A stretch of DNA of 64,000 bases, from assembly GCA_947561395.2 (NCBI GenBank), contig OX387183.1:11087402-11151401 (forward strand), given 5' to 3'. Positions 1 to 48,676 of this stretch are shown here, one piece after another. The notes beneath the pieces are model-generated. The model was given only the letters and a program-made list of their open reading frames with translations, was not told the DNA's origin and did not search any database. Within the stretch, counting starts at the first letter, position 1; each line of letters starts with the position of its first letter. Source of the DNA: Buxus sempervirens. Its lineage: Eukaryota; Streptophyta; Magnoliopsida; Buxales; Buxaceae. The position numbers were made by a program, and so were the translations under genes.

Positions 1-1619
1 TTTTCCAATTCAAAGTGCTTCATGGCCCGGCTGTAGTCTTGTTGCATCTCCAAATATATCTCGTTCAGCCTGATCTGCTTCTGATGCACTGCTTTTAGTG
101 TGTCATCAGAATTCCATACTGTTGACCTCACCCAACTCAACTTGTTGTCAATTTGTGCAAACTTCGGCTTAATCACTTCTCGTACATCCTTTCTCACAGA
201 GTAGGTGTCACTTTCTACGTTCTGAAGAAGATGTTCCATCTTAGCAACGTGGCGATCAGTTTCATGCTTGTATGCAAGCTGACCATCGTACAATTGTTTT
301 ATTTGCTGCTTCATCGTCTCCTGGTTCTCAAGAAGTAGCTTGGTTTGATTCATCAACTCACATTGCATGCCCATAACCTGTGAAAGGATTGATGCGAGTC
401 CACGAGGAAATTGGGAAGAAGTTGTTTGGTCTATAGGAGCAGTAGCAGGAGCAGGCGTCGATGAGGATGGAATATCATGTTCCACAGGTTGATCATGTGT
501 AGCAGACTCCAGAAGAGGAAGATCATGCTCATGTCCTATAGAAACATTGGGGGGAGGAGATGGAGGAGCAGGAGCATCTGCACCAGCAGGGGGAGGAGAT
601 GGAGGAGCAGCAGCATCCTCACCAGCAGGGGGAGGAGATGGAGGAGAAGGCGCATGGACCCCTGAAACAGGGGGAGGGGGTGGAGGAGCAGGAGCATCTT
701 CACCAGCAGGGGGAGGAGATGGAGGAGAAGGCGCATGGACCCCTGGAACAGGGGGAGGGGGTGGAGGAGGAGGATGAGACTTGTTGTATTGTCCCTTGGA
801 CTTATTGTATGTTGCAGTATTGATAGGAGGAAGGGGAGCAAGTAACTCATACTCGGGGAAGTCAATTTGATGCATCTTGACTATCTTTGCAATGGCACAC
901 CCGAGAGGAAGTCCACACCTACGTTTGGTATCGAGAAAACAGTCAAGCATAGTCGAAATCATGATGGTGGGAACATCAATTGAATGCCTGTTGACCAATG
1001 CATAAAGCAAGAGTGCCCTCATAGAAGGCACAGTTGATCTGTGACTCACCGGCGCAACGTTAGAGCATTGGATTTTGTATATGAATGAGGTGTCAAATGT
1101 AAACTTGGAGGAATCCAGAGCTTTGCCCTCATAGTCCCCCTCCCTCTCAGTGGTCAGTAAACAAGCAGCCACTTCATTGAGCAATTGTGGTAAGGGAGCA
1201 TCAACATACGGGAATTCAGGATTCTCAACTCTCGGAATACCTAGGGCCCCAGCGATGGTATCAGAATCTACATGGATGGGCTGCCTTCTGAGAGAGGTAT
1301 CGAAGGATGGACCGTCTGCGATGTTGTGGATGTTTGAATAGAATTCATATACTAGGTGTTGGGATGGGAGCAGGAAGTTGGTGAAGAGGTTATCCCATCC
1401 TCTCCCGGTAAATGCTGCACTAATAGACTCGGGGAAGTCTTCTAGAATAACCCCTCTTTCAAGCAAGATTTGTCTGTGGCTGACATCATTCTCGTACAGC
1501 TTCTTGGCCTGCCGATCGATGAAGATTGAATTATCAAATGAATCAATCCTGCGTTTCTTATTGGCTGTCCTGGAGGATTTCTTAGGTTTAGAAGATGAGG
1601 CTCTGGTCTTAGGGGCCAT
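1..1619 (-). CDS. Putative plant transposon protein, 3' end outside window
   Basis: An uninterrupted minus-strand frame of 539 codons starts at an ATG at 1619 and runs off the window edge without a stop. The N-terminus is basic and Ser/Lys-rich (MAPKTRASSSKPKK). Residues about 30-250 resemble the 'putative plant transposon protein' family (IPR046796/PF20167): a VYEFYSNI stretch, a segment ending in GALGIPRVENPEFPY, then a helical RALLLYALVNRHSIDVPT region. Residues about 282-358 are a proline-rich tandem repeat (PPSPPPAGEDAPAPP-type units), and the rest is Glu/Gln/Lys-rich and probably coiled coil. The family is known only as transposon-associated; no enzymatic activity is established. A minus-strand TATA box lies about 155 bp upstream. 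It is a diverged relative of the gene at 9594-10889, pointing the opposite way with the palindrome between them. The frame is from direct translation; the family is from remembered pattern. Confidence 0.75.
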   Translation of the reverse strand, partial: MAPKTRASSSKPKKSSRTANKKRRIDSFDNSIFIDRQAKKLYENDVSHRQILLERGVILEDFPESISAAFTGRGWDNLFTNFLLPSQHLVYEFYSNIHNIADGPSFDTSLRRQPIHVDSDTIAGALGIPRVENPEFPYVDAPLPQLLNEVAACLLTTEREGDYEGKALDSSKFTFDTSFIYKIQCSNVAPVSHRSTVPSMRALLLYALVNRHSIDVPTIMISTMLDCFLDTKRRCGLPLGCAIAKIVKMHQIDFPEYELLAPLPPINTATYNKSKGQYNKSHPPPPPPPPVPGVHAPSPPSPPPAGEDAPAPPPPPPVSGVHAPSPPSPPPAGEDAAAPPSPPPAGADAPAPPSPPPNVSIGHEHDLPLLESATHDQPVEHDIPSSSTPAPATAPIDQTTSSQFPRGLASILSQVMGMQCELMNQTKLLLENQETMKQQIKQLYDGQLAYKHETDRHVAKMEHLLQNVESDTYSVRKDVREVIKPKFAQIDNKLSWVRSTVWNSDDTLKAVHQKQIRLNEIYLEMQQDYSRAMKHFELE

Positions 1620-1773
1620 CTAAGATTTCAGAAGAAGAGAGGAAGAAAAATAAATATGCACAAAACAACACATAGCAAACGATAATGTTAGACACAGAAA
1701 AGATGAGTGCTACCGAATGCAAATAATATAGAATGTGAATAATATGAATAATTGTGTGGAAAAAACCCACTCC

Positions 1774-1780
1774 CTATATA
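1774..1780 (-). promoter_or_regulatory. TATA box of the leftward gene
   Basis: The minus strand reads TGTATATAGGGAG here, about 155 bp upstream of the ATG at 1619. The gene at 9594 has a similar arrangement (GTATAAATAGAGGG). Assignment is by motif and distance only. Confidence 0.5.
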
Positions 1781-2587
1781 CATAAAAAAAAACCCCAACA
1801 CTTGAGGAAAAAGTGCAGGCGTTATTCACGCGTCAGGGAGATAACAATAGGGATGTGTACTTGTCAAAGGCTTATAGGAAAAGTGAATAGTAACTTGATT
1901 GCAACCGATAATATAAACCATTCCGACGAAGATAAACCAAAATGTACCTCTTGAAGACATTAGAATAAACACATAGATCGGAAACCCTAAATGAACAAAT
2001 TAATACCCTAATCGTAACATATAAAATCAAAGCAGTAAAGTTCGTAAAGCATCTCGTCAGTCCTACGAACCAGAAATATAGGCTTTGGAACTCTTCCAGA
2101 AGAGAAGTGGTACCCACCCTGAGAAGACTTTATCGCAATGAAGATGAAGCGCTTCGGATGGCTTTGATTCGCATGGACGAAATAACGCGCCAGACCTGTT
2201 TCTTTGTAAATATAGGCAAACGCCCGAACGCACGCGCCCAGCACGTGCGCGCGTTGATATTAAATATGTGCCAAAACATAAGGAATTCTTCAAAGGGTAC
2301 CTTCGGTTTATGATTGGGGTACCCCAGGCAAAATGTGGGGATACCTCATGCAAAAACACGGCGGTACCCAAACCCGAAGCGAACGTCCGAGCGTTCACGA
2401 GAACGTGCGCGCGTTCATATTAAATATGTGTCGTCCCCAGAGCCTCTTAACTTTTTTAAAGTGTCCCAACGGGTTTTGTTCACGAGAACGTCCGAGCGTT
2501 CATGTATGTACATTTGTATATGTGTGTACACATGATTGTACACATGTGTGTACATGTTCACACATGTACATGTATATATGTGTACAC
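1781..2587. other. Spacer with first GGTACC and AACG..CGTT motifs
   Basis: No gene is supported. From about 2230 it carries the same words as the palindrome: CACGCGC at 2231-2237, CGTGCGCGCGTT near 2246, GGTACC near 2300, 2320 and 2363, and near-palindromic 14-mers at 2382-2395 and 2402-2415. A TGTACA-rich run begins near 2499. Motif spacing is less regular than inside the palindrome. Short open frames here are fortuitous. Confidence 0.6.
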
Positions 2588-2905
2588 ATGTACCCAGGTC
2601 TGTACATGTGTACACATGTACATGATATATGTGTACACAAGTACATGTTCTTTAACGTGTACATGTACGGACATGTGTGCACATGTACACACATGTCTAC
2701 ATCTGTTCAAATGCATGTAAATGTACATGTATGTGTACAAATGTACACACATGTACATGTGTACTCATATTGATATGTGTAAGCGTGTACACATGCACAC
2801 ACATGGGCACATGTGTGTACACACACGCACATGTGTACACATATACATATGTGTAAATGTGTACACAGATGACAATGTCCATGTGTACATTTGTAAGGTA
2901 CATCA
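2499..2905. repeat. TGTACA/ACATGT array, left outer
   Basis: A dense run of overlapping palindromic words (TGTACA, ACATGT, GTGTACAC). A full ACATGTGTACACATGT lies at 2604-2619. The mirror copy is about 7612-7929. Cys/His/Thr/Val-rich open frames across it on both strands are artefacts of the repeat. Confidence 0.85.
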
Positions 2906-3040
2906 GCAAACAAGCCAGAGGTGCCCCCAAATGATAACTTACGGTAGGGACAATTACGAAAACAAGTACGTCATAGGTACCCCACATAAAACGTGGGTAC
3001 CCAAACAATAACATGACGGTACCCCATTCTGATGGCGAAG

Positions 3041-4577
3041 GTACCATATATAAGGAATTACTAGGAAACATTAACGCGCGGACGTTAAGGTGCAACGCGC
3101 GCGCGTTAAAGCTATTAATGCGCGTCCGACAGCTGTCTTCTTCGGCAGGAACGTTCGCGCGTTCATGACCAACGTCCGCGCGTTGACGTCTCTTCCACTT
3201 TCCTTCTACAGGGTACCTTCGCTTTTAAAACAGGGGTACCTACGTATTATATCCTTGGGTACCCCCTTATATTTGGGGTACCTGTGTCCTACACTAATTT
3301 ACGCTCCTGTGCTTGTACATACATGTGTACAAATACATGAAAGCAGCCGATACACATCAAAAAATGTAATAACACGTGTGCACAGATGACAATGTCATAG
3401 GAACCCCAACTAATACGTGGGTACCCAAGGATAGGGAATGAAGCTACCCCACACGTAAGGCGAAGGTACCATATATAAGGAATTACTAGGAAACATTAAC
3501 GCGCGGACGTTAAGGTGCAACGCGCGCGCGTTAAAGCTATTAATGCGCGTCCGACAGCTGTCTTCTTCGGCAGGAACGTTCGCGCGTTCATGACCAACGT
3601 CCGCGCGTTGACGTCTCTTCCACTTTCCTTCTACAGGGTACCTTCGCTTTTAAAACAGGGGTACCTTCGTATTATATCCTTGGGTACCCCCCTAATATTT
3701 GGGGTACCTGTGTCCTACACTAATTTAGGCTCCTGTGCTTGTACATACATGTGTACAAATACATGAAAGCAGCCGATACACATCAAAAAATGTACTAACA
3801 CGTGTGCACAGATGACAATGTCATAGGAACCCCAACTAATACGTGGGTACCCAAGGATAGGGAATGAAGCTACCCCACACGTAAGGCGAAGGTACCATAT
3901 ATAAGGAATTACTAGGAAACATTAACGCGCGGACGTTAAGGTCCAACGCGCGCGCGTTAAAGCTATTAATGCGCGTCCGACAGCTGTCTTCTTCGGCAGG
4001 AACGTTCGCGCGTTCATGACCAACGTCCGCGCGTTGACGTCTCTTCCACTTTCCTTCTACAGGGTACCTTCGCTTTTAAAACAGGGGTACCTTCGTATTA
4101 TATCCTTGGGTACCCCCCTAATATTTGGGGTACCTGTGTCCTACACTAATTTACGCACCTGTGCTTGTACATACATGTGTACAAATACATGAAAGCAGCC
4201 GATACACATCAAAAAATGTAGTAACATGTGTGCACAGATGACAATGTCATGGAACCCCAACTACTACGTGGGTACCCAAGGATAGGGAATGAAGCTACCC
4301 CACACGTAAGGCGAAGGTACCCAATATGAGGAATTACTAGGAAACGTTAACGCGCGGACGTTAATGTCGAACGCGCGAGCGTGAAAGTTATTATTGCGTG
4401 TGCGACAGCTCTCTTCTTCGGCCGGAACGTTCGCGCGTTAGAGACCAACGTCCGCGCGTTAACGTCTGTAGCCCTTTCCTTCTACTCGGGTACCTTCGTT
4501 TTAACCCCGGGGTACCTTCGTATTATATCTTGTGCTACCTTAGGTTTAAGTGGGGTACCCTAAGATATGCTTCGGTA
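3041..4577. repeat. Left-arm tandem units of ~425 bp (3 full, 1 partial)
   Basis: The GTACCATATATAAGG-type start recurs at 3041, 3466 and 3892 and in variant form at 4317, giving periods of 425, 426 and 425 bp. The first three are nearly identical; the fourth is diverged and shorter. Each unit has two near-palindromic 14-mers on each side of a CAGCTG core (perfect GACAGCTGTC at 3128-3137), flanked by GGTACC boxes. In unit 1 the 14-mers are at 3073-3086, 3094-3107, 3150-3163 and 3171-3184, with GGTACC at 3040-3045 and 3212-3217. All are symmetric about 3128.5. Confidence 0.92.
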
Positions 4578-5065
4578 CATGTGTTTACATGTGTACAAAT
4601 ACATACAAGCAAGCCTATACACATCAAAGAATGTTCTTACATTTGTGCACACAAGTACACATTTTCCTGTGTGCGTGGGTACACGTACATGTACATGTGT
4701 ACACACATTTACCTGTACCTGTGCACACACATGTAGATGTTTACAAATGTACACACATGGGCACATGTTTATACACATATACATGTGTAGACATTGGTAC
4801 ATGTCTACTCATATATAAATGCACATGTACATGTATATATGCGTGCACACACATGTACACATGTGTATATGTGTAAACATGGAGATGTATATATGAGTAG
4901 ACATGTTCACATGTGTATATGTGCACACATGTATATGTGTGTAAACATGTTCCCATGTGTGTACAGGTATAAACATGTACATGTATGTACAAAGGTAAAG
5001 GTACATGTGTGTACACATGTACATGTACATACATGTTTACACATGTACACATGTATGGACATGCA
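4578..5065. repeat. TGTACA/ACATGT array, left inner
   Basis: A second run of the ACATGTGTACACATGT word family, ending at the central spacer. It pairs with the mirror array at about 5422-5940. No coding content is credible despite long open frames on both strands. Confidence 0.85.
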
Positions 5066-5421
5066 CAGAAGCGTATATTAGGGTTGGCCACAGGTACCCC
5101 AATTAAAACAAAGGTACCTCAATATATAATACGAAGGTAACCCGGCTTCAAAACGAAGGTACCCAGTAGAGGGTAAGGGGAACCGACGTCAAGGCGCGGA
5201 CGTTGGTCTCTAACGCGCGAACGTTTCGGCCGAAGAAGACCGTTGTCGCTTTATTAGCTTTAACGCTCGCGCGTTTGACTTTAACGTCCGCGCGTTAACT
5301 TTTCTTAGTAATTCCTCATATTGGGTACCTTCGCCTTACGCATGGGGTACCTTCATTCCCTATGCTTGGGTACCAACGTAGTAGTTGGGGTTCCTATGAC
5401 GTACTTTTCTTCGTAACTGTG
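5066..5421. repeat. Central spacer: a single motif module
   Basis: The spacer between the arms is a module of the same kind: GGTACC at 5158-5163, 14-mers at 5191-5204, 5212-5225, 5262-5275 and 5283-5296, GGTACC at 5324-5329. It is symmetric about 5243.5 with centre spacings 37-21-50-21-37. GGTACC-like boxes continue outward at 5346 and 5369. A direct repeat of it lies at about 8020-8345. Confidence 0.88.
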
Positions 5422-5939
5422 CCTAACCATACATTTGTACACATACATGTACATTTATATGCATTTGAACAGATGTAGACATGTGTGTACATGTGTACTC
5501 ATATATGTGTAAACATGTACATTTATATATAAGTAGACATGTACCAATGTGCACACATGTAGATGTGTGTAAACATGTGCCCATGTGTGTACATTTGTAA
5601 ACATGTACATGTGTGTACACAGGTACAGGTACATGTGTGTACACATGTACATGTACATACATGTTTACACATGTACATGTGTGTACACAGGTACAGGTAC
5701 ATGTGTGTACACATGTACATGTACATACATGTTAACACATGTACACATGTGTACATGTACACACATGTCTGTACATGTCTACAAATTTCTGTACCTGTAA
5801 ACATGTACTTGTGTACATGTACGTATACCCACGCACACACATGTGTGTAATTGTGTACACACATGTAAGTACATTCTTTGATGTGTATAGGCTTGCTTGT
5901 ATGTATGTGTACACAAGTAGACACATGTACCGAAGCGTA
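5422..5939. repeat. TGTACA/ACATGT array, right inner
   Basis: Reverse-complement counterpart of the left inner array, with the same word family and the same inner boundary relative to the centre near 5258. Confidence 0.85.
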
Positions 5940-7476
5940 TATTAGGGTAGGCCACAGGTACCCCACTTAAACCTAAGGTACCACAAAATATAATATGAAG
6001 GTACCCAGGTGTTAAGGCGAAGGTACCCCAGTAGAAGGAAAGGGCAACAGACGTTAACCCGCGGATGTTGGTCTCTAACGCCCGAGCGTTCCGGTCGAAG
6101 AAGTGAGCTGTCGCACGCGCATTAATAACTTTCACGCTCGCGCGTTCGACATTAACGTCCGCGCGTTAACGTTTCCTAGTAAATCCTCATATTGGGTACC
6201 TTCGTCTTACGTATGGGGTAGCTTCATTCCTTATCCTTGGGTACCCACGTTTTAGTTGGGGTTCCTATGACATTGTCAACTGTGCTCACGTGTTACTACA
6301 TTTTTTGATGTGTATCGGCTTCTTTCATGTATTTGTACACATGTATGTACAAGCACAGGTGCGTAAATTAGTGTAGGACACAGGTACCCCAAATATTAGG
6401 GGGGTACCCAAGGATATAATACGAAGGTACCCCTGTTTTAAAAGCGAAGGTACCCTGTAGAAGGAAAGTGGAAGAGACGTCAACGCGCGGACGTTGGTCA
6501 TGAACGCGCGAACGTTCCTGCCGAAAAAGACAGCTGTCGGACGCGCATTAATAGCTTTAACGCGCGCGCGTTGCACCTTAACGTCCGTGCGTTAATGTTT
6601 CCTAGTAATTCCTTATATATGGTACCTTCGCCTTACGTGTGGGGTAGCTTCATTCCCTATCCTTGGGTACCCACGTATTAGTTGGGGTTCCTATGACATT
6701 GTCAACTGTGCACACGTGTTACTACATTTTTTGATGTGTATCGGCTGCTTTCATGTATTTGTACACATGTATGTACAAGCACAGGAGCATAAATTAGTGT
6801 AGGACACAGGTACCCCAAATATTAGGGGGGTACCCAAGGATATAATACGAAGGTACCCCTGTTTTAAAAGCGAAGGTACCCTGTAGAAGGAAAGTGGAAG
6901 AGACGTCAACGCGCGGACGTTGGTCATGAATGCGCGAACGTTCCTGCCGAAGAAGACAGCTGTCGGACGCGCATTAATAGCTTTAACGCGCGCGCGTTGC
7001 ACCTTAACGTCCGCGCGTTAATGTTTCCTAGTAATTCCTTATATATGGTACCTTCGCCTTACGTGTGGGGTAGCTTCATTCCCTATCCTTGGGTACCCAC
7101 GTATTAGTTGGGGTTCCTATGACATTGTCAACTGTGCACACGTGTTACTACATTTTTTGATGTGTATCGGCTGCTTTCATGTATTTGTACACATGTATGT
7201 ACAAGCACAGGAGCGTAAATTAGTGTAGAACACAGGTACCCCAAATATAAGGGGGTACCCAAGGATATAATACGAAGGTACCCCTGTTTTAAAAGCGAAG
7301 GTACCCTGTAGAAGGAAAGTGGAAGAGACGTCAACGCGCGGACGTTGGTCATGAACGCGCGAACGTTCCTGCCGAAGAAGACAGCTGTCGGACGCGCATT
7401 AATAGCTTTAACGCGCGCGCGTTGGACCTTAACGTCCGCACGGTAATGTTTCCTAGTAATTCCTTATATATGGTAC
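5940..7476. repeat. Right-arm tandem units of ~425 bp
   Basis: Mirror image of 3041-4577: one diverged unit (about 5940-6200), then three near-identical units (about 6201-6625, 6626-7051, 7052-7476). Frame fragments translate to the same peptides as in the left arm (for example MQRARVKAINARPTAV on minus), so arm-to-arm identity is very high. Those frames have no codon-level support and are read as non-coding. Confidence 0.9.
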
Positions 7477-7611
7477 CTTCGCCATTAGAATGGGGTACCG
7501 TCATGTTATTGGTTGGGTACCCACGTTTTATGTGGGGTACCTATGACGTACTTGTTTTCGTAATTGTCCCTACCGTAAGTTATCATTTGGGGGCACCTCT
7601 GGCTTGTTTGC

Positions 7612-8019
7612 TGATGTACCTTACAAATGTACACGTGGACATTGTCATCTGTGTACACATTTACACATATGTATATGTGTACACATGTGCGTGTGTGTAC
7701 ACACATGTGCCCATGTGTGTGCATGTGTACACGCTTACACATGTCAATATGAGCACACATGTACATGTGTGTACATTTGTACACATACATGTACATTTAC
7801 ATGCATTTGAATAGATGTAGACATGTGTGTACATGTGCACACATGTCCGTACATGTACACGTTAAAGAACATGTACTTGTGTACACATATATCATGTACA
7901 TGTGTACACATGTACAGACCTGGGTACATGTGTGTTCTTGTTTGCACACATGTAAGTACATTGTTTGGTGTGTACCGGCTTGCTTGTATGTATGTGTACA
8001 CATGTATGTACATGCATAG
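7612..8019. repeat. TGTACA/ACATGT array, right outer
   Basis: Mirror of the left outer array as far as 7929. Beyond that it continues with related words (to about 8019) that do not match the left flank, which sets the palindrome edge. Confidence 0.8.
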
Positions 8020-8345
8020 ACGCGTATATTATGGTTGGCCCCTGGTACCCCAATTAAAACTAAGGTACTGCACTATATAATACGAAGGTACCCCGGTTTC
8101 AAAACGACGGTACCAGGTAGAGGGTGAGGGGAACAGAAGTGAACGCGCGGACGTTGGTCTTTAACGCGCGAACGTTCTGGCCGAAGAAGATCGTTGCCGC
8201 TTTATTAGCTTTAACGCTCGCGCGTTTAACTTTAACGTCCGCGCGTTAACTTTTCTTAGTAATTCCTCATATTGGGTACCTTCGCCTTACGTATGGGGTA
8301 CCTTCATTCCCTATGCGTGGGTATCCACGTATTAGTTGGGGTACC
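8020..8345. repeat. Extra motif module, direct repeat of the spacer
   Basis: Same orientation and order as 5066-5395: GGTACC at 8109-8114, 14-mers at 8142-8155, 8163-8176, 8213-8226 and 8234-8247, GGTACC at 8275-8280. Centre spacings are 37-21-50-21-37, identical to the spacer. A further half module (GGTACC 8601-8606, 14-mers 8634-8647 and 8655-8668; spacings 37 and 21) follows. Confidence 0.88.
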
Positions 8346-8730
8346 TATGACGTACTTGGCATGTGTACACATGTCTGTACGTGTACCCACGCACACACAT
8401 ATATACCTGCGTTTATATGTGTGTGTGTTCCTGTTTGCACACTTGTAAGTACATTTTTTGTTGTGTATCGGCTGCTTGTATGTATTTGTACACATGTATG
8501 TACAAGCACAGACGCGCATATTAGGGTAGGCCACAGGTACCCCAGTTAAAACTAAGGTAGCCATTGATATAATAAGAAGGTACCCCTGTGTTACAGGTAA
8601 GGTACCCCGTAGAAGGAAAGGGGCACAGACGTCAACGCGCGGACGTTTGTCTTTAACGCCCGCACGTTCCAGATTAAGAGGACAACTGAAGCGCGCGCTT
8701 TCTGAAGGACCTTTCGCGCGCTATTGTATG

Positions 8731-9015
8731 GGGTACCTTCATATGTTTTTTTGGGTACCTGCGTTTTATGTGGGGTACCCATACAGTACCTGGCTTCTTA
8801 ATTGTGGCAACCGTAAGGCATTATTGGGGGGCACCTTTGGCTTTTTTCCTGATGTACCTTAGAATTTTTTGAGGGGTGCCGTGGTCGTATTTCTTGGGTT
8901 ACCTCGCTACAACTCTGTGCTATTGGTTCTCTCTTCATGGGGTCACGTTTTGGAAAACTTTGCACAGTACCTTGGGCTTAAGTCTGGGGTAGCATGGCCT
9001 TCTTTAGGGGGTACT
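8731..9015 (+). promoter_or_regulatory. Helically phased GGGGTACC box array
   Basis: TACC, or a one-base variant, preceded by G-runs starts at 8734, 8756, 8776, 8787, 8809, 8832, 8855, 8877 and 8900, then 8968, 8990 and 9012. Steps are 20-25 bp with one 11 bp step, so sites stay on about the same DNA face. It ends about 310 bp before the TATA box of the rightward gene. Promoter or origin-like function is inference. Confidence 0.7.
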
Positions 9016-9179
9016 CAGATTTGTATGTATTGAAGGTTCAAAAATACGTGCACATATCTTACATGAGTCACATTCATAACGTGACATGAATGTTATAAAC
9101 TCTCACATCATTCAATACCTTTCCCATGATTTCTAGACACATTATTATATCATAAAAATATAATATTTTCATACAGCAA

Positions 9180-9265
9180 GTCGCTGTTTCATCAGGGTTA
9201 GGTCCCATGCGTAATCGGAACATGGCGATTAAGCATGCGATTAATCTATTGATTTGTACGACTAA
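9180..9265. promoter_or_regulatory. GATTAAT cluster upstream of the rightward gene
   Basis: Contains GTAATCGG, GCGATTAAG, GCGATTAATC and CGACTAATCGT within about 80 bp, directly upstream of the TATA box at 9322. The same palindromic word (CGATTAATCG) forms a cluster beside the transposase gene at 14880-15050. Confidence 0.55.
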
Positions 9266-9321
9266 TCGTGCGGCCGTATGTATTATTTGTATGCGCACAA
9301 GCGAGGGTTTATGTTTGGGTG

Positions 9322-9329
9322 TATAAATA
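9322..9329 (+). promoter_or_regulatory. TATA box of the rightward gene
   Basis: TATAAATA followed by GAGGGTTTCGC, 265 bp before the chosen ATG at 9594. The 5' leader would be about 235 nt. No intron signals were needed. Confidence 0.6.
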
Positions 9330-9593
9330 GAGGGTTTCGCTCCACTTCGTACTCACGAGTAATCTAGGGTTTCCTACGCATGGGTCCCCTTATTCCACTG
9401 TTCTCCTGCTGCCTCTCGCCTCCAAATCACGATTAATCTACGGTATACGCACTTCCTGTTTCTTCCAGGGTTCTCCAAGTCTGTATACTCTCCAACTCAA
9501 GGCCAAATATACGGGGTTTACGGTTTGGCTCCACCAAGTTTCCACTGTGAGTTGTGTTGAACATTGTTTTGTTCTCTGTCATTTTCTCAAATC

Positions 9594-10889
9594 ATGCCTC
9601 GAACAAAGAATTCTAGCATGCGCCATAAGAGGAGAAGGGATAGGACTCCTGCACCTGCAAGTCCCTTATTATCTTCCGGCTCTCATTACAGCCCTTCTGA
9701 GACAGAGGAACCCAATCCCTCTCAGTCTACCATCCACAGGGAGCCTTATTCTCCTGATAATTCATCGTCTGCACCTTCTGAAGCCGAGCAGATTCGGCAG
9801 CGACCCTTGATTGTTGAGAAACCGGTTCTTAGATCATGTTTAGAACCATATGGTATTGTACAGATTCTGGAAGCTGTTGGTTGGTCCGGCATTCTAGATT
9901 GGGGGGATGCTGCCAACTCCTCGACTGTTGCTCAACTTTATGCCGGATCCCGTAACTTGTCCACCCCTCCTTTTCGTGAGCCTGCATTTGAGATCAAAGT
10001 GGCAGACTCTACATATACTGTCACACCTGACTTGATAAGTGATCTAATGGGTATACCTAGATCAGAGATCCGTTTCCTGAACCCACCAACGCAAGAGGAA
10101 CTTGCTGAGGCCACTCAATGTCTGTGTGGGATTGATGCACCATGGAAAAAGACTGTGCTTCAAGCTAATCAGCTCTTCCCTGCGTATAGAATACTCCATC
10201 TCATCTTCACATTCAATGTCTATCCTAGGTGCGGTAATAAGTTCGAGCTGACCAAGCCCATGGTCTTCCTTCTCTACCGTCTCATTACTCGGACGCGCCT
10301 TTGTCTGCCCACATTCATTTGCAGACATATATGTCAAGTTGTCCATTCATCTCGTCCCAGAGCCCTTCCGTTTGCCTATCTTATGACCAGGATTGGGATG
10401 AGGTTTGGTTTACGTGGACCTCCTGATTCCATGGTTATTTCAAGGCAATTTTCACAGATGAATCTAAATCAAATGCAACTTGCACCTTTGCACCACCACT
10501 GTCACGTGGCTCAGAGATCCGAAGAATCAATGGCGCACCAACAGCAGCCACAACAAAGAGAGGAAGCAGAGCCAGCACAACCTTCGTCATCACATCCTCG
10601 TCCACCCACTTCTCAACCCAGCTCTTTCAAGACATATTCACGACGTGGACCGTCGTCAGAAGCCTTTCGTAGGCTTAGCCAAGATGTTGGAGAGATTCGA
10701 GAGGATTTTGGCAGTCTACGACGTGATTTTGGAATGTTTCAGGAATCTATCACTCATGAAGTTGGTGGACTAAAGAAGCTGGTCAAGAAAGCCGTGAAGA
10801 TAGTGACTCATCTCTTCACTTGCTCCACTCAGCAGACTCCATCCCTCCCACCACTTCCCGGGTCTGATGACGATGACATTGCACCATAG
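9594..10889 (+). CDS. Putative plant transposon protein (431 aa)
   Basis: Complete frame ending at TAG 10887-10889. An upstream in-frame ATG exists at 9564, but 9594 gives an N-terminus (MPRTKNSSMRHKRRRDR) matching the basic start of the homologue at 1-1619. Residues about 80-300 carry the family region: GWSGILDWGD, AQLYAGSRNL, FEIKVADSTYTVTP, DLISDLMGIP, then a helical FELTKPMVFLLYRLITR segment. The tail is Gln/Pro/Ser-rich, with a probable coiled coil (VGEIREDFGSLRRDFGMF) and an acidic end (GSDDDDIAP). The family (IPR046796/PF20167) is transposon-associated with no proven biochemical role. It lies downstream of a TATA box and the phased GGTACC array and convergent with the transposase at 12011-14555. 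It may be an accessory gene of the same mobile element. Confidence 0.8.
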   Translation: MPRTKNSSMRHKRRRDRTPAPASPLLSSGSHYSPSETEEPNPSQSTIHREPYSPDNSSSAPSEAEQIRQRPLIVEKPVLRSCLEPYGIVQILEAVGWSGILDWGDAANSSTVAQLYAGSRNLSTPPFREPAFEIKVADSTYTVTPDLISDLMGIPRSEIRFLNPPTQEELAEATQCLCGIDAPWKKTVLQANQLFPAYRILHLIFTFNVYPRCGNKFELTKPMVFLLYRLITRTRLCLPTFICRHICQVVHSSRPRALPFAYLMTRIGMRFGLRGPPDSMVISRQFSQMNLNQMQLAPLHHHCHVAQRSEESMAHQQQPQQREEAEPAQPSSSHPRPPTSQPSSFKTYSRRGPSSEAFRRLSQDVGEIREDFGSLRRDFGMFQESITHEVGGLKKLVKKAVKIVTHLFTCSTQQTPSLPPLPGSDDDDIAP

Positions 10890-12010
10890 TGTGCTGATTT
10901 TAGACGTACTTCTATGTTTTGGATATAAATGTCTTTATCTCAACGCAACTCAGATGTGTAGAATGTACTCATTTCCCATAGTAAAAGTATTCGTAATTAC
11001 AGCATCATAATCCTCTGTTGTTTCCATTTGATATAACTTTGTCCATCAATTTACTCCGAATCAGTTCCTTCTTTGAAAAGATGATTGGCGGTGCACCGTA
11101 GGCCTCATTTGGGGGCTACCTAAGGCATCATTGGGAGGATTCCTTGAGGACAAGGGCATAATTACAGGGAACAAAGTGGTACATTAGGAAGTAGGAAGAA
11201 TTTCCTTATAACGCGCGGACGTTACGAACCAACGTTCGCGCGTTGAAATCTCAATCACCAATTCGTACTGCAACGTTCGGGCGTTGATATCCCAGGTACG
11301 CGCGTCATGCTATTTGTGCAGAGGGTACCTTGCGCTTATTTGTGGGGTACCTAAAGCATGATTGTGGGTACCTAACGCGTAATCTACGGTACCTAAGGTC
11401 CAGATGGGTGGGTTCTTATTGTTGTTTCAGGGGATACCTTAACTCTTCAATTGGGGTGTACAAAATTTATATATTGGGGGGTTTTGGGAGCCATTATGGG
11501 TGGCGCCTAAGGGTTGATGTTGGATGTACCTGTGTTATTAATGGGGGAACCTTATTTTTATTTGGGATGTACTTGCAAGAGGAACAGCAAGAAGCTCTGA
11601 AAATATTAACCAATTAACAGAACTAAATAATTAACTCAAAATTGCGATTCTCATTCCACTGGAAGTATACATTTGGTACATACACATCCTTGTACAATTA
11701 GAAAAAATGAACACTTACATTGCACTACATGAACAATATAATTACAGGACTAACACTGTCAACACATTCAATACACACAATTCACTCCCCCTTTCTTGTC
11801 GTATCAATATACAAAAGAATCACAAATCTCCAGGGAAATGATCTAAATCTCCTTCTTGACGATATACGCTCCCATCTCGACTATAAACTCCTGGAGATCT
11901 CCCTACAGTAGAGCTTGAACAGGAGCCAAATTGATTCTGGCCAACAGTATTGCTTGAGTTGGATTCTTGGAATATGTTTGGACTCATTGATTCCTGTCAT
12001 TAATGGAATG
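10890..12010. other. Convergent 3' spacer with a GGTACC array
   Basis: No gene. It repeats the element's motifs: GGTACC-type boxes from about 11090 to 11580 (GGGGTACCTAA-type, all in one direction), and near-palindromic 14-mers at 11210-11223 and 11231-11244 (centres 21 bp apart, as in the palindrome), with another at 11272-11285. From 11600 to 12010 it is AT-rich with no recognisable content apart from probable 3' UTR of the transposase. Confidence 0.6.
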
Positions 12011-14555
12011 TCATTGCAAAGCATTGAAAGTCTTCAAAAAGTATTGAAGAGTAGGATCTTCTAGAAAATATACCCGCAGTAGCTGTGTGTAAGTACCAGG
12101 TTGTTGGAATGGAGACAAAATTGCATATTCAGCCATAGGATATGTTCTCGATTGCATTCCCGTCACCACTCCATCTGTTCGAAACTGATGAGAGGCCTAT
12201 GGAATACATAAAATTCATAAAAAATAAGAAATCCCCCATAAAACCATAATCATGATATGATAAAACAAATACATTAGTATGAGGTAAGTATTATACCATT
12301 GTCTCACTCCATCCAGAGCTTTGACTTGCATATTGTGTTTGTGGTGGAGTTTGAGTCTGAATTGTATTTGCCGTTTGAGCTGGTCTGTCATGGTTCCTCT
12401 TGCTCTTTGGAGCCCTTTCTGAAAAATGTTTTGGTCGACGTCCACTACGACCTCGACCCGGCTTCCTCTTCAGTCCAGCAACGGTGATTTGGATATTTTC
12501 AGATAAATTCTCTCCTTCATTCACATCCACTGTGCTCGGAGGCTTGTTCTTCAGCACATTTCCAACTTCAGTCATTAAAATGGCCAGCCCATTCGCAGCA
12601 CATTCATATGCCTCGAAAGTTTCGGCAGCAATTGCTGATAATTTAACGGCATTATGGCAAAGTTCTCTGTACCGTTTAACCAAGGACAGTTTTGCCACTT
12701 CCTCATCTGACATACGACTATAACTTGGGCTGCAACCCTTTGCATCCTTTGTCCACCGCTTTAATATGTATTGACTTGGGATCCTCTTAATATTTCGCAT
12801 GTCAAGTACTTTGAGTGCATGGCTACACAAAATCCTAACAAATTCAAACTTACGGCAACTGCATTTCAACATATCATCCTCAGTGTTAACTGTAACAACA
12901 TGCCCTCGAGGATTATCAAATAAGCTAACTTTATAGATTTTGGATGTCTCAGTATGTGAAGTCTCATTAACAACAAGATTCTGAGCTTTTGCATATTCCG
13001 ATTGAAAAATCTCAAACAGCTTCGGTGTGTATACCTCCCTTGCATGCTTTAATATGATGATTTCCGCCATCATTCTTGGAATACGCTGGCTCATATTATA
13101 ATTGTCTTCCTGTTCCTTGTAACGGATATCATCCAAAAGCCTTGCAAAATGCTGGAAAAAACACGAGACGTCCATGTTGTACTTCGTGTATTTCTTTAAC
13201 CGGCTGTTGAAGCTTTCACTCAGTTGGGTGCTCTTCATGTCAGCACAAAATGTAGTTCTTCCATATACAAGGGCCCATTTCTCCTTTATCTTAAATATGC
13301 CCTTCAGCCACTCATTGTCTTGGAGATCGTATTTTTGAATCATTGCATCCCACGCTTCCAAGAACTCAGCCTCTTCCTCGTAATCATATATACACCGATT
13401 GAAATCAGATGAAAAGGAGGTTCTCGTTTGGAATATGTGACCGAGATGCTTCAATGAATTTTGGTGCAAATGCCATACACATAACCGATGATACGTGTTC
13501 GGCAAAACAAAAGCAATTGCAGCTGACATAGCTGCATCTTGGTCTGTCAAGATGGTAACTGGCCCTTTCCCATTCATTGCCTTTATAAATGTTTCAAACA
13601 ACCAAACAAAGGATGCCTTCGTCTCATCATAAAGCATTGCGGCTCCGAACACTACCATTCGTCTGTGATGGTTGACTCCAACCAATGGTGCAAATGGCCT
13701 TTGAGCTTCGTTTGTCCTATAAGTTGTATCAAAACAAACAACATCTCCAAAATTATTGTAGTCTTCTTGCATCTTCCGATCAGCCCAGAAAAAGTTTGTT
13801 ATTTCATTGTTCTCATCAACTTGTACAGCATAAAAGAAAGACGGATCGTCAATCAGTTGTCCTTCAAAATAAATTAATAACCTTGATCCGTCTCCTACTT
13901 TCATTGCTCTCCGTCTGTCACGAATCTGGTTCTTATGGTCAATAGGTAGGAAGCCCAAATTCTCTCTTCCGTCGGCTTCTCTACCCATGAACTCAAAAGC
14001 ATGCTTTGGTCGTATGCCACTGCTTTCTGCTAATACAATTTCTGCTAATTGCGCCTCTGTAACTTTCCTCTGTGAAGGTAGCATGTGGACCTTACTTGGG
14101 GTAACAACCTCATGATTATGCTCGTCCTCAAAGCTCGCTACAAAATACATGCCATTGTCTTGAGCTTTCACACTCATGTGTGCCAAACAACCCGTACGTG
14201 TTTCCTTTCTAGGGTTCTTCACATCTTTATCCCGTTTGTCTATTCCCTTCTTCCCTTCTTTATAGCAACAAAACTTCCTACACAACTCCTTACCATCTTT
14301 CCGACTTTTCCAGCTCGTACTCTTTCGAATACTGAAGCCCTTCTGTGCTGCATAAGCATTGTAAAATCTATACGCTTCATCGGTAGATGGGAACTCCATT
14401 CCCACGGATGGCCTAAAATTTTGAGTATGCCCTTCGCCGTCATCGAACCTTAGTGCTCTTACAACTCTAGGCACTGTATTTATATCCGCTATATCATCAC
14501 TAACCTCATCTCCACTTAATTGCTCACTTCCACTTGTACAAATGACTTGCTCCAT
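12011..14555 (-). CDS. Mutator-like transposase, FAR1/FHY3 type
   Basis: Exon 1 is 14555-12297 (753 codons). Read alone it ends MV-stop. A GT donor after 12297 and a CCATAG acceptor at 12197 join in frame to exon 2 (12196-12011), adding 61 residues (including AEYAILSPFQQPGTYTQLLR) and a TGA, for about 814 aa. Domains: FAR1-type zinc-binding DNA-binding domain about 50-150 (C92, C97, C123, H146, H148), MULE transposase domain about 270-370 with D276 (CFDTTYR), D338 (LTDQD) and a CVWH motif at 359-362, SWIM zinc finger 565-579 (CSC...CSH), then a basic GRGRSGRRPK stretch. An acceptor-like TTGTAG just before the ATG suggests a 5' UTR intron. It would bind element ends and cut DNA in the nucleus. 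No frame break is visible. The alternative is a domesticated FRS regulator, but the repeat-rich setting favours a transposase. Confidence 0.85.
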
Positions 14556-14664
14556 TTGTCCCTACAACATAAAACAGATATTCCACTTAGAATATCATAC
14601 AAATAACAATATATAGTACCCATGAACATCACAGGGTAACCATTCTCTTCAACCATGTGCCAAG

Positions 14665-15235
14665 TTGGTGTATTTTGACGGCTTATTACAAAACTTGAGT
14701 ACGTCGGAATAATTTCTTAGTACCTACACACATGGTACCTACGAATTATTTTTACGGTACGCCAAGGGTACGAAGGTGGTACATAAGTTTTGGACCTTCT
14801 TCATTCCCATAGGTTTGGTTAAAATAAGATAGAATATACTGGCAACAAATAAAGTCAAAAAAAAGACAAAACATGTCCGCGCGATTAGCCCAGAGATTAA
14901 TCGTGAGATCCGCGATTAGCATCCACGACTAATCGCCCAGTCAAGATTAGGTCTCGCGATTAATCTCAAGATTAATCGCGACTGTCCCGATTAACTCTCC
15001 AGAGAACATGAAGTCTCTGTTTCATCACGATTAAATCCCAGGATTAATCGGTGCCAGACGATTTGGGATACCTACGACAATTTCTTGGGTACCTATGCCT
15101 TATTTTGGCTTAATTGGGGGTACCTAGGGCATTATTGGCTGTTTTTTGGTGGGTACCTACAGGTTCTTATGGTGTGTACCTAAGGCTTAATTGTGGTGAA
15201 CCTCACATTTTTTCGGTGGGTACCTAAGGCTTGTT
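14665..15235. promoter_or_regulatory. GGTACC and ATTAATCG arrays beside the transposase 5' end
   Basis: From about 14680 to 14790 there are GTACC boxes. At 14880-15050 a cluster of GATTA/TAATC words (14883, 14895, 14914, 14945, 14958, 14970, 14989, 15029, 15042), several as CGATTAATC, is CpG-rich. From 15067 GGGTACC boxes recur at 21-33 bp steps (TACC at 15069, 15090, 15121, 15154, 15177, about 15199, 15221). Lying upstream of the transposase, they may be its promoter or terminal transposase-binding sites; this is inference. Confidence 0.6.
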
Positions 15236-15439
15236 CGGGGGTGGTAATGGCTTATTTGACAGCTGTTTATTTCTGGGCGTACCCTGTTGATGTGTGGCGG
15301 CGCGGCATTGTTCGCCCGACCATCATTTCAATTTATTTAAGGTTCCACCATCTTCGGGGGTTGACATTAATGGAAAAGGCCAAAAATCTGTTTATGTACC
15401 TGGTTTACATTGGTTGTTGGAGTCTTAAATAGAAACCCA

Positions 15440-18400
15440 TAATGGTGGAGTGAGTGGTGGTCCCTTCTTCTTTAACACTTGGAAGTGGAACTGTGGTAGC
15501 TGCCTTCCTTTTCTTCGAAGTGAGAGTAAAGACAGCACCTTTCCCGCCAATGTCGGAGTAAACACAGAAATGTCTGAGTAAGAACAGAGAAAGTTCGGAC
15601 GTGGACAAGATTATAAGTTAAATAATATAAATGTTTCGCGCGTTTTCGTCTTGCCGAGGAGAGAGCCGAGGAGAGTTTTAATAGTTTTTTAAGTGTTTGG
15701 ATCAAAATTACTATTATAACCTTCGCTTATTCTGGTCCGTTGGATTGCGCTTCACAGAGGATGCCTTTGCTTCACAGGCGATGTGCTTCACAGAGGATCC
15801 GCGCGCATTTTAAACAGGGTTTGAGATCTAAGCTGGTTGCTCTTTCTATTCTATCGGCATGCTTCACTTATATCAATGGTTTACGTCTTCTATTGAGGTG
15901 CTCTCCCCGCCAGCCGCTTTCTTTGATCGAGCTGCTCGGTTCCTCGCCCACACCTGCTTGACGTTTTTTTGCCTAAAATCACAACACGTTATGTGCTCAA
16001 TCCCTAAAATCAAACCACGTTGGCTGCTGCATAAACAAAGGTTTGCTCAGGCGATGCGACGTCGCCGACTTCTCAAATCTGTAAGCAAAGAGGAGAAGGC
16101 GGTCCTTCCTTATCGATGGTCTTCAGCTGTCTATTTGCTTCTCAAATTTCTCCAATTCTTCAGCCGTCTATTTACTTCCCAAAATTTCCACCTCAAATTT
16201 CTTTTTTACTGCTGCATGTAACGTGCCATGAGCCAGTCATGGGAATTCCTTACTGGGATCGGTAATAGTTGAGATTCTTGAGAATGCTGTGGTTACCATC
16301 CCTCCAAGTCAATATATATATATACCTGTAAGTATTCCTAGGTCCCATTTCTTTTTGTTTGTTAAACTTCTTTACAAAATGTAATCGTAGATCACTTGTT
16401 CGATGAAATTCTTGAAAGAGTATACATATAAAGAAACCCATTTCCAGCTGTTCATATAAAGAAGAACAATTGAAGATGGTGTTTTGAATGGTAGATAATA
16501 GAAAATAGAGATATCCTTTTCATCTTATTAAGGGTGTTACTAATTGGTTTATGATTTCATTACATTTTGAGTTTTAGTTTGAGTTAAAATACATTATTTG
16601 GAAAGCAAAAGAAAAAGGAAATAATCTCAGTGAATTTGGGTTGTATTCTAAGCACATATTTATGTGATTTCTGTGGTCATTACAATTTCAGTTTTAATTT
16701 CCGTTAAAATACATTATTTAGAAAGGAAAAGTAAAGGAAATAATCTCTGAAAGGATACTGCCCAATGTTTAATCATATTCTTGAGTGGGTTTCTGATATC
16801 TATTCCTTATTATTGGCTTCTTAAAAGGTTATTGTTTTGTAGTGCCTAGCCTAGATATCAAAGCAAATTATTAGTTTTATCAGCTCCATCCTTGGATTAG
16901 ACTTATCGTATATATTACAGAAAAATACAATGATTTGAATTCCAAATAGGCTACTGTTTGATGGCCCTTGGCCTAGACATTGTTGCAAAGCTATTAATCC
17001 TCAAATTAGATATGGGGAACAAATATTATAGAGATTTAATTTTTGGTAATCAGAACTGACTACATTTTATACTTGATTTCTTTGTATGTATTAGTATACA
17101 TCAGCATCCAGAAAATATTATTTTTAAACACAATCATGTGGAATGCATCTTCATTTTATCAAAGTTGAAACCATTAGAAAGTAAGAAAGTTTAACCCTGT
17201 ATTACAAAAAATCATTGGAAAGTAAGAAAGTTGAAACCATCCAATTTAATGTATAAGCCCTCAAAATTTCTAATTAATATGGATATTCCTTTTGGTAGAA
17301 ATCAGTAGTTTCTTGTCTTGTCAATAAATCCAAATTCTATATAATGCAGTGAACATAGAAGCCCATATGTGTGGATGAGTACTAAAAGTTTTCCTTCAGA
17401 ATGTTGAACTATAGAAATCTTCCAATCTGGTGATATTCCGAATTTTTAATACATCTGACTGATTATTATGCTGAGAGGTAAATCAAAGGGTAAAAACCCA
17501 TACAAACCTTCAAAGAATATTGAGTAGAAATAAATGTACTTAGTGGGAGGAAAGCCAATTGGGACTTGAATTGCTAGAAAGCATTTAAGAATAATAATAT
17601 TAGAGGGCAAGAAGAGAAATACTGTCTGATTAAAGAAAACCAAAAAAGGACTACTCAAATTGTACTGCAAAAAGCAAAAAGAGTAATAGATTCATGGAAG
17701 ATGAATTCTATGACGGAGGAAAACAATACAAGCTAAGTTTTTGGAGAATAAAATAAAGCTGATTTAACAGGAGAGATTCTTTTTCCCTTTCTCCAAGAAA
17801 ACCCTCCACCAAAATTTGTTGCAAGTAGGTTACAACAGATGGACACGACATAAAATTTGTGATTTCCTTGAAAATCTAAAGTCGAACTTAAACTTACCAA
17901 TTAATATAAAGAAGAATTACACATTCTATATAATATAAGAAGACCAGAATCAGTAGGGTTTTTTTGAAAAGCTTGATACGAAAGGTAAAAGAACAAACAA
18001 AAGAAAACAAATAGGGATTTTGGAAATAAGGATATGCATACATTGGAACTTGTGGAATGGTGGATGTGGTCTTTAACCAGGATCATGTTAAATACAAAGG
18101 AGATTTCCTCTGGAGGTTATACTTCAGTAGCGTGTATAACTTGAGCATCCTATCCAAGAAAGATTTTCTTTGCTTTGTCACTGAATTATGTTATCCTCCA
18201 ATCATCCCTTATTTGTGTCTGGTTCATCCAACAGGCACTCCAGCATTTTCATGGCTGCATTGAATTACATCCTATGTTGCTTTGTTTGATCTTGAGCATT
18301 ACAATGCATATCTTCTTTAGTTTACATTATGTAGTCAGTAAATCATGTAATTCAATTTCATTATGCGGTGGAAAACCTTGTTTAAAATTGTTATGGATTT

Positions 18401-19690: not shown

Positions 19691-19943
19691 TAACGCAGCC
19701 GTGCGGAAACCCTAGCTAACGCAGTCGCCCTTCTTTTCGTTTTTTTGGTAGGCATCAGCCGCCCCTTCTTCACAGCAGGAAGTATTGAAGAGTCATTTAA
19801 ACACAACAATATCTAAGACGAAGTCATAACCATGGCCCAGCCACTGATTATAGAGTCGTGAAGTCTCATTCCACCATTACAATAATTCTCTTTAAGAGCC
19901 ATAGGAACTCAATATTTCCATTATCCAAGGAAGCAAGAAGAAG

Positions 19944-21278
19944 ATGAAAGTTGAAATCATCTCAAGAGAGACCATCAAACCATCTTCCCCAACTCCTCTT
20001 CACCTTAGAACCTTGAAACTCTCCCTTCTTGATCAGATCCTTTCTCCAGTTTATGTTCCCATCGTTTTGTTTTACAATACCAAGAACAATGAAGGAATAA
20101 CTGGAACCGCCAAAAGGGCAGAGCAGCTCAAGAAATCCTTATCGGATGCCTTAACCATATACTACCCACTTGCAGGAAGGACCAAAGATGGCTTCACCAT
20201 CGACTGTAACGATGAGGGGGTTGATTTTTTGGAAGCGCAAGTCAACTGCAAGCTCTCAGAAGTTTTAACGGAACCTGAATTGGAGGTCTTCAAGCTTTTT
20301 ATTCCAAGTGATTATCCAATCATTGGACCAGATAACGTAGTTCAATTAGCCGTTCAAGTAAACCACTTTGATTGTGGAGGACTCGCAATTGGTATGAGCT
20401 TTTTACACAAGATCATTGATGCATCATCGTTGACGGCGTTTGTTAATTATTGGGCCTCCATCGCTCGTGGTTCTACTGAAGCTTCGTATCCCATCTTCAT
20501 ACAAGATTCTCTCTTCCCATCAAGAGATTTAGCAGGATTCATGCCAAATTTTGGTACATCCAAATTGGTGTCCCCTTCAAGTATAAGGACAAGCAGGTTT
20601 GTGTTTGATGGCTCAAACATAGCTGCTGTAAAGGCGAAGGTGGCTGACATCGGCTATTTGAGTGCTGTGAAGCAACCCAGTCGGGTTGAAGTGGTGTCAT
20701 CGTTGATCTGGCAACGTATAATAGCTGCGTCTCGAGCAAAACCAGGTTCGAAAAAGCTTGTTTTCATGGCGAATCATGCAATCAACATGCGGAAGAAGCT
20801 AGTTCCACCGTTGCCGGAAACTTCTATCGGGAACCTCGTCTGGCGGGTGATTGTATCATCAAAGAGTGAGGAGGAGATTGAGTTGGGTGACTTGGTGCGT
20901 CAGCTGAGTGAAGCTATTCACAAAGTTGATGATGGGCAACTGAAAGAACTTCAAGGTGATGATGGGGCCTTGATGATTTTTGAAGGCATGAAAAAGTTGG
21001 GCAATTTCTTTTCAGCAGATGAAGTGGATTCTTATACCTTCTCCAGTTGGTGTAGGTTCCCTGTGTATGAAGCTGATTTTGGGTGGGGAAAGCCTACATG
21101 GATGACTGATGTTATTTTAGCAGCCCCGGGTCTGAGCAATGTGGTTATTCTGATGGATACCAGATTGGGAGATGGGATACAAGCTTGGATCACCTTGGAT
21201 GAACAAGTCATGGCAACGTTTGAAAATGACAAGGAGCTCCTTAGGTTTGCTTCATCCAATCCCAGTGCTCTAGACTAG
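19944..21278 (+). CDS. BAHD acyltransferase, vinorine synthase-like
   Basis: Single-exon frame of 444 aa, the usual BAHD length. These cytosolic enzymes transfer acyl groups from acyl-CoA to alcohols or amines of specialised metabolites. The catalytic HXXXD motif is HKIID at 155-159 (H155, D159) and the structural DFGWG motif is at 378-382. The start (MKVEIISRETIKPSSPTP) and the YYPLAGR segment at 73-79 are typical. Overall it resembles the vinorine synthase/deacetylvindoline acetyltransferase-like clade, which is commonly intronless; the substrate cannot be told. It has no break and looks functional. A second copy lies 4.6 kb downstream. Its upstream region carries a CACTA-like fragment (19566-19690), which may influence expression. 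Confidence 0.9.
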   Translation: MKVEIISRETIKPSSPTPLHLRTLKLSLLDQILSPVYVPIVLFYNTKNNEGITGTAKRAEQLKKSLSDALTIYYPLAGRTKDGFTIDCNDEGVDFLEAQVNCKLSEVLTEPELEVFKLFIPSDYPIIGPDNVVQLAVQVNHFDCGGLAIGMSFLHKIIDASSLTAFVNYWASIARGSTEASYPIFIQDSLFPSRDLAGFMPNFGTSKLVSPSSIRTSRFVFDGSNIAAVKAKVADIGYLSAVKQPSRVEVVSSLIWQRIIAASRAKPGSKKLVFMANHAINMRKKLVPPLPETSIGNLVWRVIVSSKSEEEIELGDLVRQLSEAIHKVDDGQLKELQGDDGALMIFEGMKKLGNFFSADEVDSYTFSSWCRFPVYEADFGWGKPTWMTDVILAAPGLSNVVILMDTRLGDGIQAWITLDEQVMATFENDKELLRFASSNPSALD

Positions 21279-25156: not shown

Positions 25157-25185
25157 TTTACCGGCGGACTATGACCGCCGGTAAA
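25157..25185. repeat. CACTA subterminal hairpin
   Basis: TTTACCGGCGG and its exact reverse complement are separated by 7 bp, 20 bp inside the left terminus. A related sequence (TTTACCGGCGGTAAAG) occurs alone near 58038, probably an old end fragment of the same family. Confidence 0.75.
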
Positions 25186-48674: not shown

Positions 48675-48676
48675 GA

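Follow-up and report, generated by a model that had tools for sequence, protein, structure and literature searches.

The element at the locus

We analysed a stretch of 64,000 nucleotides of Buxus sempervirens DNA (assembly GCA_947561395.2, contig OX387183.1, forward-strand positions 11,087,402 to 11,151,401), which we call the window and in whose numbering all positions are given, negative ones lying to its left. At its left end lies a multi-copy FAR1-type Mutator-like transposon, which carries between its genes a long array of two kinds of short DNA boxes at nearly fixed distances from one another, and comparative evidence lends good support to reading these boxes as a putative protein-docking platform. 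The element runs from -6190 to 15806 (21,997 bp), its ends having been found with the help of flanking DNA of the same contig. Its right terminal inverted repeat (TIR) occupies 15596..15806 on the minus strand, ending with the element at 15806, and next to it stands the target-site duplication (TSD) ATTTTAAAC (15807..15815), an exact 9-bp match with the left flank. In the end check, which took in five copies and left a sixth, E5, outside, all five have 9-bp duplications, those of the other four copies being TTCGAAAAC or CTTCGAAAA, GGTTGGTCT, CAAATCGGG and TGGAATAGC, with two possible registers in E1. The TIRs are about 200 bp long, with end-to-end matches of 157-231 columns at 79-95% identity in the five copies (87% in the window copy).

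The element has four genes. The FAR1-MULE-SWIM transposase gene (12291..14555, minus strand) is open over 754 amino acids, and its PF10551 (94.5 bits), FAR1 (93.1 bits) and SWIM (28.9 bits) domains each score above the cut-off; against solved structures its product gives weak matches only, the best (E 0.019) to a Mutator family transposase. Two accessory genes belong to PF20167 (Transposase_32), with a Pfam cut-off of 45 bits: the left one, a 601-codon frame from -183 to 1619 on the minus strand, which the window edge crosses (window part 1..1619), scores 74.9 bits, and the right one (9594..10889, plus strand, 431 amino acids) scores 50.8 bits. Their two products are 20% identical over 207 columns. 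The fourth gene, which is Ulp1/DUF1985-like, lies outside the window at about -4705 to -1649 on the plus strand (L021:3295-6354); as it apparently has several exons, it was scanned in pieces, one of which matches Ulp1 C48 at 24.8 bits (cut-off 20.7), and it has weak PMD similarity too. It is at least partly present in all six copies examined.

In its own genome the transposase has at least 59 copies of 90-100% identity (a lower bound, with 59 scored of 1255 candidates), 33 of which are without internal stop, while the right PF20167 protein gives 98 matches of 100 to 72% identity, fragments counted. The gene order of the three searched proteins is the same in E0, E1, E2, E5 and E6, as far as these were fetched. 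From the dispersed copies we infer that the element has been active recently; the ratio of nonsynonymous to synonymous change (dN/dS) for three genes, comparing the window copy with five others, ranges from 0.30 to 1.35 on few changes, which speaks neither for nor against selection. The best relative of the transposase elsewhere, among 120 listed, is 53% identical, and those that carry names are for the most part FAR1-RELATED SEQUENCE-like proteins from flowering plants.

Mutator-like elements (MULEs) are defined, in the available part of one survey, by a TSD of 8-11 bp (PMC6446971), and here a transposase domain, a 9-bp duplication, TIRs and dispersed copies are all found. The same available text defines the VANDAL group by absent or short degenerate TIRs, yet its table gives 46-174 bp (PMC6446971); the TIRs of about 200 bp do not fit that definition, and the FAR1 domain points to a MULE group other than VANDAL. 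In its N-terminal FAR1 domain, its SWIM domain and its TIRs, the element resembles the FAR1-type MULEs of that survey (by table place, the Jittery group), whose dicot/monocot sub-group has TIRs of 39-292 bp (PMC6446971). In contrast, that sub-group is given there with one open reading frame (ORF) and a TSD of 8 bp or not indicated, as opposed to the four genes, the 6-kb platform array and the 9-bp TSD seen here. No described element of this kind was found in the literature searched, subscription papers being mostly outside that search, and on TnpA/Spm subterminal sites it yielded nothing but a tool review.

Architecture and spacing of the platforms

The M box is the 14-mer AACG-N2-CGCGCGTT or its reverse complement, mapped in the window with up to 2 mismatches, and the K (or k) box is GGTACC with up to 1 mismatch. 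A preliminary description of this DNA had recognised modules of four such 14-mers flanked by GGTACC. This geometry stands, but the extent does not: the window box map gives a 12-box platform, 4K-4M-4K, with mirrored outer spacing of 20-23-22 and the formula K20K23K22K37M21M[56 or 50]M21M37K22K23K20K, from which the ten full modules (U1-U4, S5, U6-U9, S10) depart by 1 bp only. On the plus strand lie U1 (2976..3282; K20K22K22K37M21M56M21M37K23K23K19K), where the centres reported earlier are recovered exactly (M at 3079.5, 3100.5, 3156.5 and 3177.5, GGTACC at 3042.5 and 3214.5), U2 (3400..3708; 20-23-22-37-21-56-21-37-23-23-20), U3 (3826..4134), of the same geometry as U2, and U4 (4251..4559; 20-23-22-37-21-56-21-38-22-23-20), whose inner 37-21-56-21-38 had been described. 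On the minus strand lie U6 (5957..6265), U7 (6383..6691), U8 (6809..7117) and U9 (7235..7541), as well as S5 (5093..5394) and S10 (8044..8345), both reading 20-23-22-37-21-50-21-37-22-23-20, in agreement with the inner 37-21-50-21-37 previously given for the spacer module and for the one at 8109-8280. The 50-bp centre of S5 is 6 bp below the 56-bp centre, and S5 has an extra k between K and M. In H11 (8536..8779, minus strand), one half is intact at 20-23-22-37-21, as the 37-21 of the half module at 8601 had indicated, and the other has M-like sites at 3 mismatches only.

Two satellites are less regular. The pair at 11210 does have the 21-bp step ascribed to it, but it is not isolated, as had been thought: it belongs to a diverged platform (11115..11393, unstranded) reading k-63-k-36-M-21-M-41-M-21-m-27-K-22-K-21-K-21-K, whose last m has 3 mismatches. 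The left satellite (2296..2415, unstranded) has the variant geometry K-22-K-22-k-23-K-23-M-20-M. The distances are not the same everywhere: the left satellite's pair at 2388.5/2408.5 has a step of 20 bp, with a K-M distance of 23, and the centre is variable.

U1-U4 lie, in plus orientation, in the left arm (2584..4500, plus strand) of a large inverted duplication, whose right arm occupies 6016..7933 on the minus strand. The arms are 95-100% identical per 100-bp bin over 2600-4199 and 91-95% over 4200-4499, differing at 21 positions in 1617 gap-free bases, and U1-U3 are nearly identical to one another. The modules on the right thus arose recently from those on the left by inverted copying and do not count as independent evidence. 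In the window, the lineages that can be taken as independent are U1-3, U4, S5/S10, H11 and the satellites. The observed/expected CpG ratio is 1.62 over 3018-3240, 1.08 over the array (2501-8870) and 0.62 over 16001-64000. Between platforms there are TGTACA-rich blocks (2500-2890, 4560-5080, 5400-5940), with a CpG ratio of about 0.3 and a TpG/CpA ratio above 2.2, in which GTAC stands mostly at even distances.

Platforms are found in all three intergenic regions between the four genes of the window element. The main array lies between the divergent PF20167 genes, a further platform at 11.2 kb, and another from about -947, reading k21K23k22K36M21M21M33M21M39K22K22K21k. A plain promoter role does not account for the two outer platforms (-947 and 11.2 kb), which stand between convergent gene 3' ends. 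Upstream of the fourth gene, and likewise of the transposase gene, there are K boxes, but no platform was found; no M box at up to 2 mismatches occurs from 11286 to the element end, and therefore none upstream of the transposase gene. Another motif, CGATTAA/TTAATCG, occurs three times near the start of the right gene (9226-9430) and six times upstream of the transposase (14897-15044), and also elsewhere in the window.

Is the spacing kept outside the window? In the 676.5-Mb genome, the M 14-mer has 1094 forward and 1096 reverse matches, exactly palindromic sites being counted on both strands, as against 8 and 6 for a reversed-pattern control, and is thus far commoner than by chance; most of 100 listed places fall into dense clusters, with roughly 15 being solitary. 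Exact M pairs in the same orientation with a gap of 0-30 bp number 505, and in 459 of these the gap is 7, i.e. 21 bp centre to centre, the control giving 0 in both counts. Exact head-to-head pairs with a gap of 14-44 number 229 per strand (control 0). Of the 50 distinct places that were listed, 26 have a centre of 56, 14 of 50, 4 of 49, 1 of 52 and 1 of 32, and 4 span an intervening M. One copy (G000:C1:54326215-54331170) has a 49-bp centre in all four of its listed places.

In the first ten copies, of which F3 has no M box and F4 four M boxes only, 124 of 193 successive M distances within a limit of 130 bp come to 20 or 21 (20:16, 21:108, 23:1, 31:1, 32:9, 33:9, 41:8, 50:8, 53:1, 54:1, 56:24, 77:1, 78:2, 85:3, 98:1). 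With four more diverged copies added, and M again taken at up to 2 mismatches, 133 boxes follow one another within 30 bp, and 132 of them step by 20 or 21 bp; in other words, the distances between motifs, said to be constant from the window, do not scatter elsewhere. Half platforms with upstream K boxes give the same picture, 131 of 132 distinct M pairs being 20 or 21 bp apart. These pairs come from a table of 146 rows covering 11 of the 14 copies, none from F3, L037 or L038 (search ranges M-M 12-30, K-M 12-60, K-K 12-34), in whose K distances some half platforms are counted from both sides: K4-M1 is 36-38 in 110 of 146 rows, K3-K4 21-23 in 113 of 124, K2-K3 22-23 in 116 of 122 and K1-K2 19-21 in 113 of 120. 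The centre, for its part, is 31 (1), 32 (9), 33 (8), 41 (1), 50 (8) or 56 (23) in the fetched copies, and the distance from platform to platform goes from 327 to 979 bp in the same DNA. That said, the copies are related by descent, and all these spacing counts are therefore non-independent trials.

The rigid unit is hence the half platform, 4K+2M in about 133 bp. The idea of a multi-subunit protein-binding platform is upheld by spacing and box conservation, only not in the form of a single rigid 37-21-56-21-37 dyad, which finds no support in a centre that varies in length without a common helical phase. Similarly, steps of two helical turns describe the K-K and M-M distances (20-23 bp) but not the K-M distance, 37 bp being about 3.5 turns. 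The two pairs of sites at 21 bp within a pair recall the dyad-symmetry element (DS) of oriP in Epstein-Barr virus (EBV) and the LANA sites of Kaposi's sarcoma-associated herpesvirus (KSHV), as described in the available part of one source (PMC3798644). The likeness ends there, since here we have extra K boxes, many repeats and a plant DNA transposon in which no related protein domain was found.

Divergence of boxes and spacers

When left and right halves are compared in four modules, the spacers differ at 29-35 of 75-80 columns, as against 0-1 of 24 for M and 2-3 of 24 for K. The same alignments have 3-5 indel events at a lenient gap cost and 0-1 at a stricter one, and because of this dependence we base constancy of spacing on the distances measured from box to box and not on these alignments. 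A search with a profile built from the window half platforms, which misses very altered ones, found 116 half platforms, 103 near full length and 93 of these distinct, from eight of ten copies. Pairwise diversity among the 93 is 0.070 for K, 0.081 for M and 0.387 for spacers, the M value being made up of 0.113 at CpG positions and 0.016 at other positions; the two free M positions have 0.294. When the box labels are shifted circularly, none of 132 shifts matches the observed contrast between boxes and spacers. Of 70 distinct half platforms that have both their ends and no more than 3 gap columns, 68 measure 130-135 bp.

Over deep time, boxes change far less than spacers. Mean box mismatch is 0.029 at a spacer difference of 0.044 and stays at 0.06-0.08 over spacer differences of 0.16 to 0.53, with a single pair at 0.61 giving 0.167. 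In particular, 439 pairs of half platforms have spacers that differ by 53% on average and boxes that differ by 8%, and their lengths differ by at most 2 bp in 401 of these pairs; in the bin of divergence just below, this holds for 678 of 826 pairs.

In L037, the oldest copy examined, chains of K boxes persist, and M-like sites about 21 bp apart (L037:3701-3753) differ from M by CpG-type transitions; its right protein is 72% identical and the right gene has three stops. We considered whether this copy had acquired a new motif, but decay explains it equally well, given these transitions and stops. In L038 there are remnants only.

Candidate binders and possible function of the array

As a whole, and with a probability that we would put at roughly one half, the array is best explained as a non-coding transposon platform, whose M boxes would be bound by a protein encoded by the element, with an anti-silencing, VANC-like effect. 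Namely, the half platforms (4K+2M, about 133 bp) are set head to head, and their K and M boxes would be bound, in steps of about two turns, by proteins that line up next to one another in an ordered assembly within each half platform. As each kind of box is a palindrome or close to one, these proteins would most likely be dimers. The two halves would be coupled only loosely, since the centres (32, 41, 50, 56 bp) share no helical phase. The binder of the M boxes may be encoded by the Ulp1/DUF1985-like gene or by one of the PF20167 genes, and binding would protect the intergenic DNA of the element from silencing and maintain the expression of its genes, in the way that VANC acts for VANDAL in Arabidopsis. 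We favour an anti-silencing role because, among other points, CpG-rich boxes are kept inside a transposon.

According to the available parts of the sources, VANC is encoded by the element itself and binds short motifs that lie, tandemly repeated, in the non-coding parts of VANDAL, leading to loss of methylation (PMC5735166, PMC10398659), and some VANC (KIU) genes carry a Ulp1 domain (PMC5735166, PMC13317346). It is the fourth gene, with its match to this domain, that suggests a VANC-like role for the present element. As far as those descriptions go, both systems are multi-gene Mutator-like elements with short motifs clustered in non-coding tandem repeats and a Ulp1-like gene; they differ in the TIRs of about 200 bp, the FAR1-type transposase, the two PF20167 genes and the other motifs found here.

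Several observations weigh against this explanation. VANC targets are not described with fixed spacing in the parts of the sources available, and the analogy thus leaves the rigid, nearly fixed multi-box geometry unexplained. The DUF1985 match of the fourth gene is weak, its 24.3 bits falling below the curated cut-off of 35.1. Neither PF20167 protein has relatives in protein searches at E 0.001, and a predicted structure of the right one, made with the left protein as the only other row, was discarded as unusable for its fold, with a mean predicted local distance difference test (pLDDT) score of 35.9; the left one has no match among solved structures at E 1. Finally, the view that motifs evolve more slowly than spacers holds in deep time and fails in young copies, where M boxes change like the rest. 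Between the arms, changes are at least as frequent in boxes (4 in 168 bp) as elsewhere (17 in 1449 bp), and between the window copy and E6 they number 10 in 630 for M, 2 in 428 for K, which is somewhat slower, and 81 in 5442 for other DNA; E2 gave no alignment above 96% in this comparison and hence no count. This is most simply explained if single inserts can decay freely, the boxes having been kept in those lineages that went on transposing.

A more specific version, which we think somewhat less likely than not, is that of a stereospecific, repeated 12-box docking platform, its half platforms holding their length to about 1-2 bp through deep divergence, on which the element's own accessory proteins would build an ordered complex shielding or opening the whole element. 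If true, this would be anti-silencing of fixed architecture, unlike the described repeats of VANC motifs, and in a different MULE branch.

Could the FAR1 transposase itself be the binder of the M boxes, controlling its own genes or folding the element in transposition? We consider this rather unlikely. The FAR1 binding site, CACGCGC in the available part of the source (PMC8599713), is matched at 6 of 7 letters by the M form AACGCGCG; the two have ACGCGC in common, while the first base differs, M having AACGCGC and being a near-palindromic 14-mer, and the exact site occurs just twice in window 1-16000. The TIR end GCGCGCGGATCC also has CGCGCGGA in common with one M form, and CGCGCG is absent from window 16001-64000. 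As a sign of transposase binding this sharing carries little weight, however, as the TIR end is variable, the terminal CGCGCG missing in four of ten TIRs (E1R, E3L, E3R, E6R). Across the ten TIR sequences, the closest match to M is at 3-4 mismatches and that to K at 2, which does not single out the transposase, and its upstream region is without M boxes at up to 2 mismatches.

It is unlikely, too, that host transcription factors bind the boxes and that the array is a bidirectional enhancer of two divergent genes. Candidates would be SPL proteins, which act on GTAC, and CAMTA or similar proteins, which act on CGCG. The position of the array between divergent genes would suit such factors, GTAC is present in K and in the intervening TGTACA-rich DNA, and the roughly 15 places of 100 where the 14-mer stands alone indicate that sites outside the element may exist. 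Single platforms are, however, also found between convergent 3' ends, and most of the listed places are in dense clusters.

A satellite without function, spread by tandem and inverted duplication with its spacing inherited and not selected, appears very improbable. The recent inverted copying of the arms, the near identity of U1-U3, the young M boxes changing about as often as spacers and the common descent of all copies are in its favour. Yet across old lineages the spacers have diverged by 0.53 and the boxes by 0.08, with lengths nearly unchanged, the platform-to-platform distances and the centre (31 to 56) vary in the same DNA, and no circular label shift gives an equal contrast. Least credible of all is an origin or tethering site like the oriP dyad-symmetry element, aiding replication or open chromatin: Mutator-like elements transpose as DNA and can do without an origin of their own, and no EBNA1- or LANA-like Pfam match exists in the gene products and exon pieces scanned (the fourth gene in pieces only), even if the two tandem sets of EBNA1 sites in DS have, in the available text, the 21-bp step of the M pairs (PMC3798644).

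The remainder of the window holds two inverted transposon copies (34240-36917 and 48596-51467), which we take to be of PIF/Harbinger type, with a Plant_tran/DDE_Tnp_4 transposase (PF04827, PF13359) and further ORFs beside. There is also a complete Transferase-family (PF02458) frame at 19905-21278, a second PF02458 copy in two pieces about 4 kb apart (24365-25174 and 29259-30041), and a 68-bp unit repeated 3.1 times at 99% (28414-28626).

Only a few plant transposons, as far as we are aware, are known to counter silencing by means of their own proteins. With many copies, several open genes and a geometry readable base by base, the binder, its cooperativity and its effect on methylation, as the platform explanation would have them, are directly testable in this element. 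That non-coding DNA should keep its spacing through such deep divergence is unusual in our judgement, and points to ordered protein assembly.

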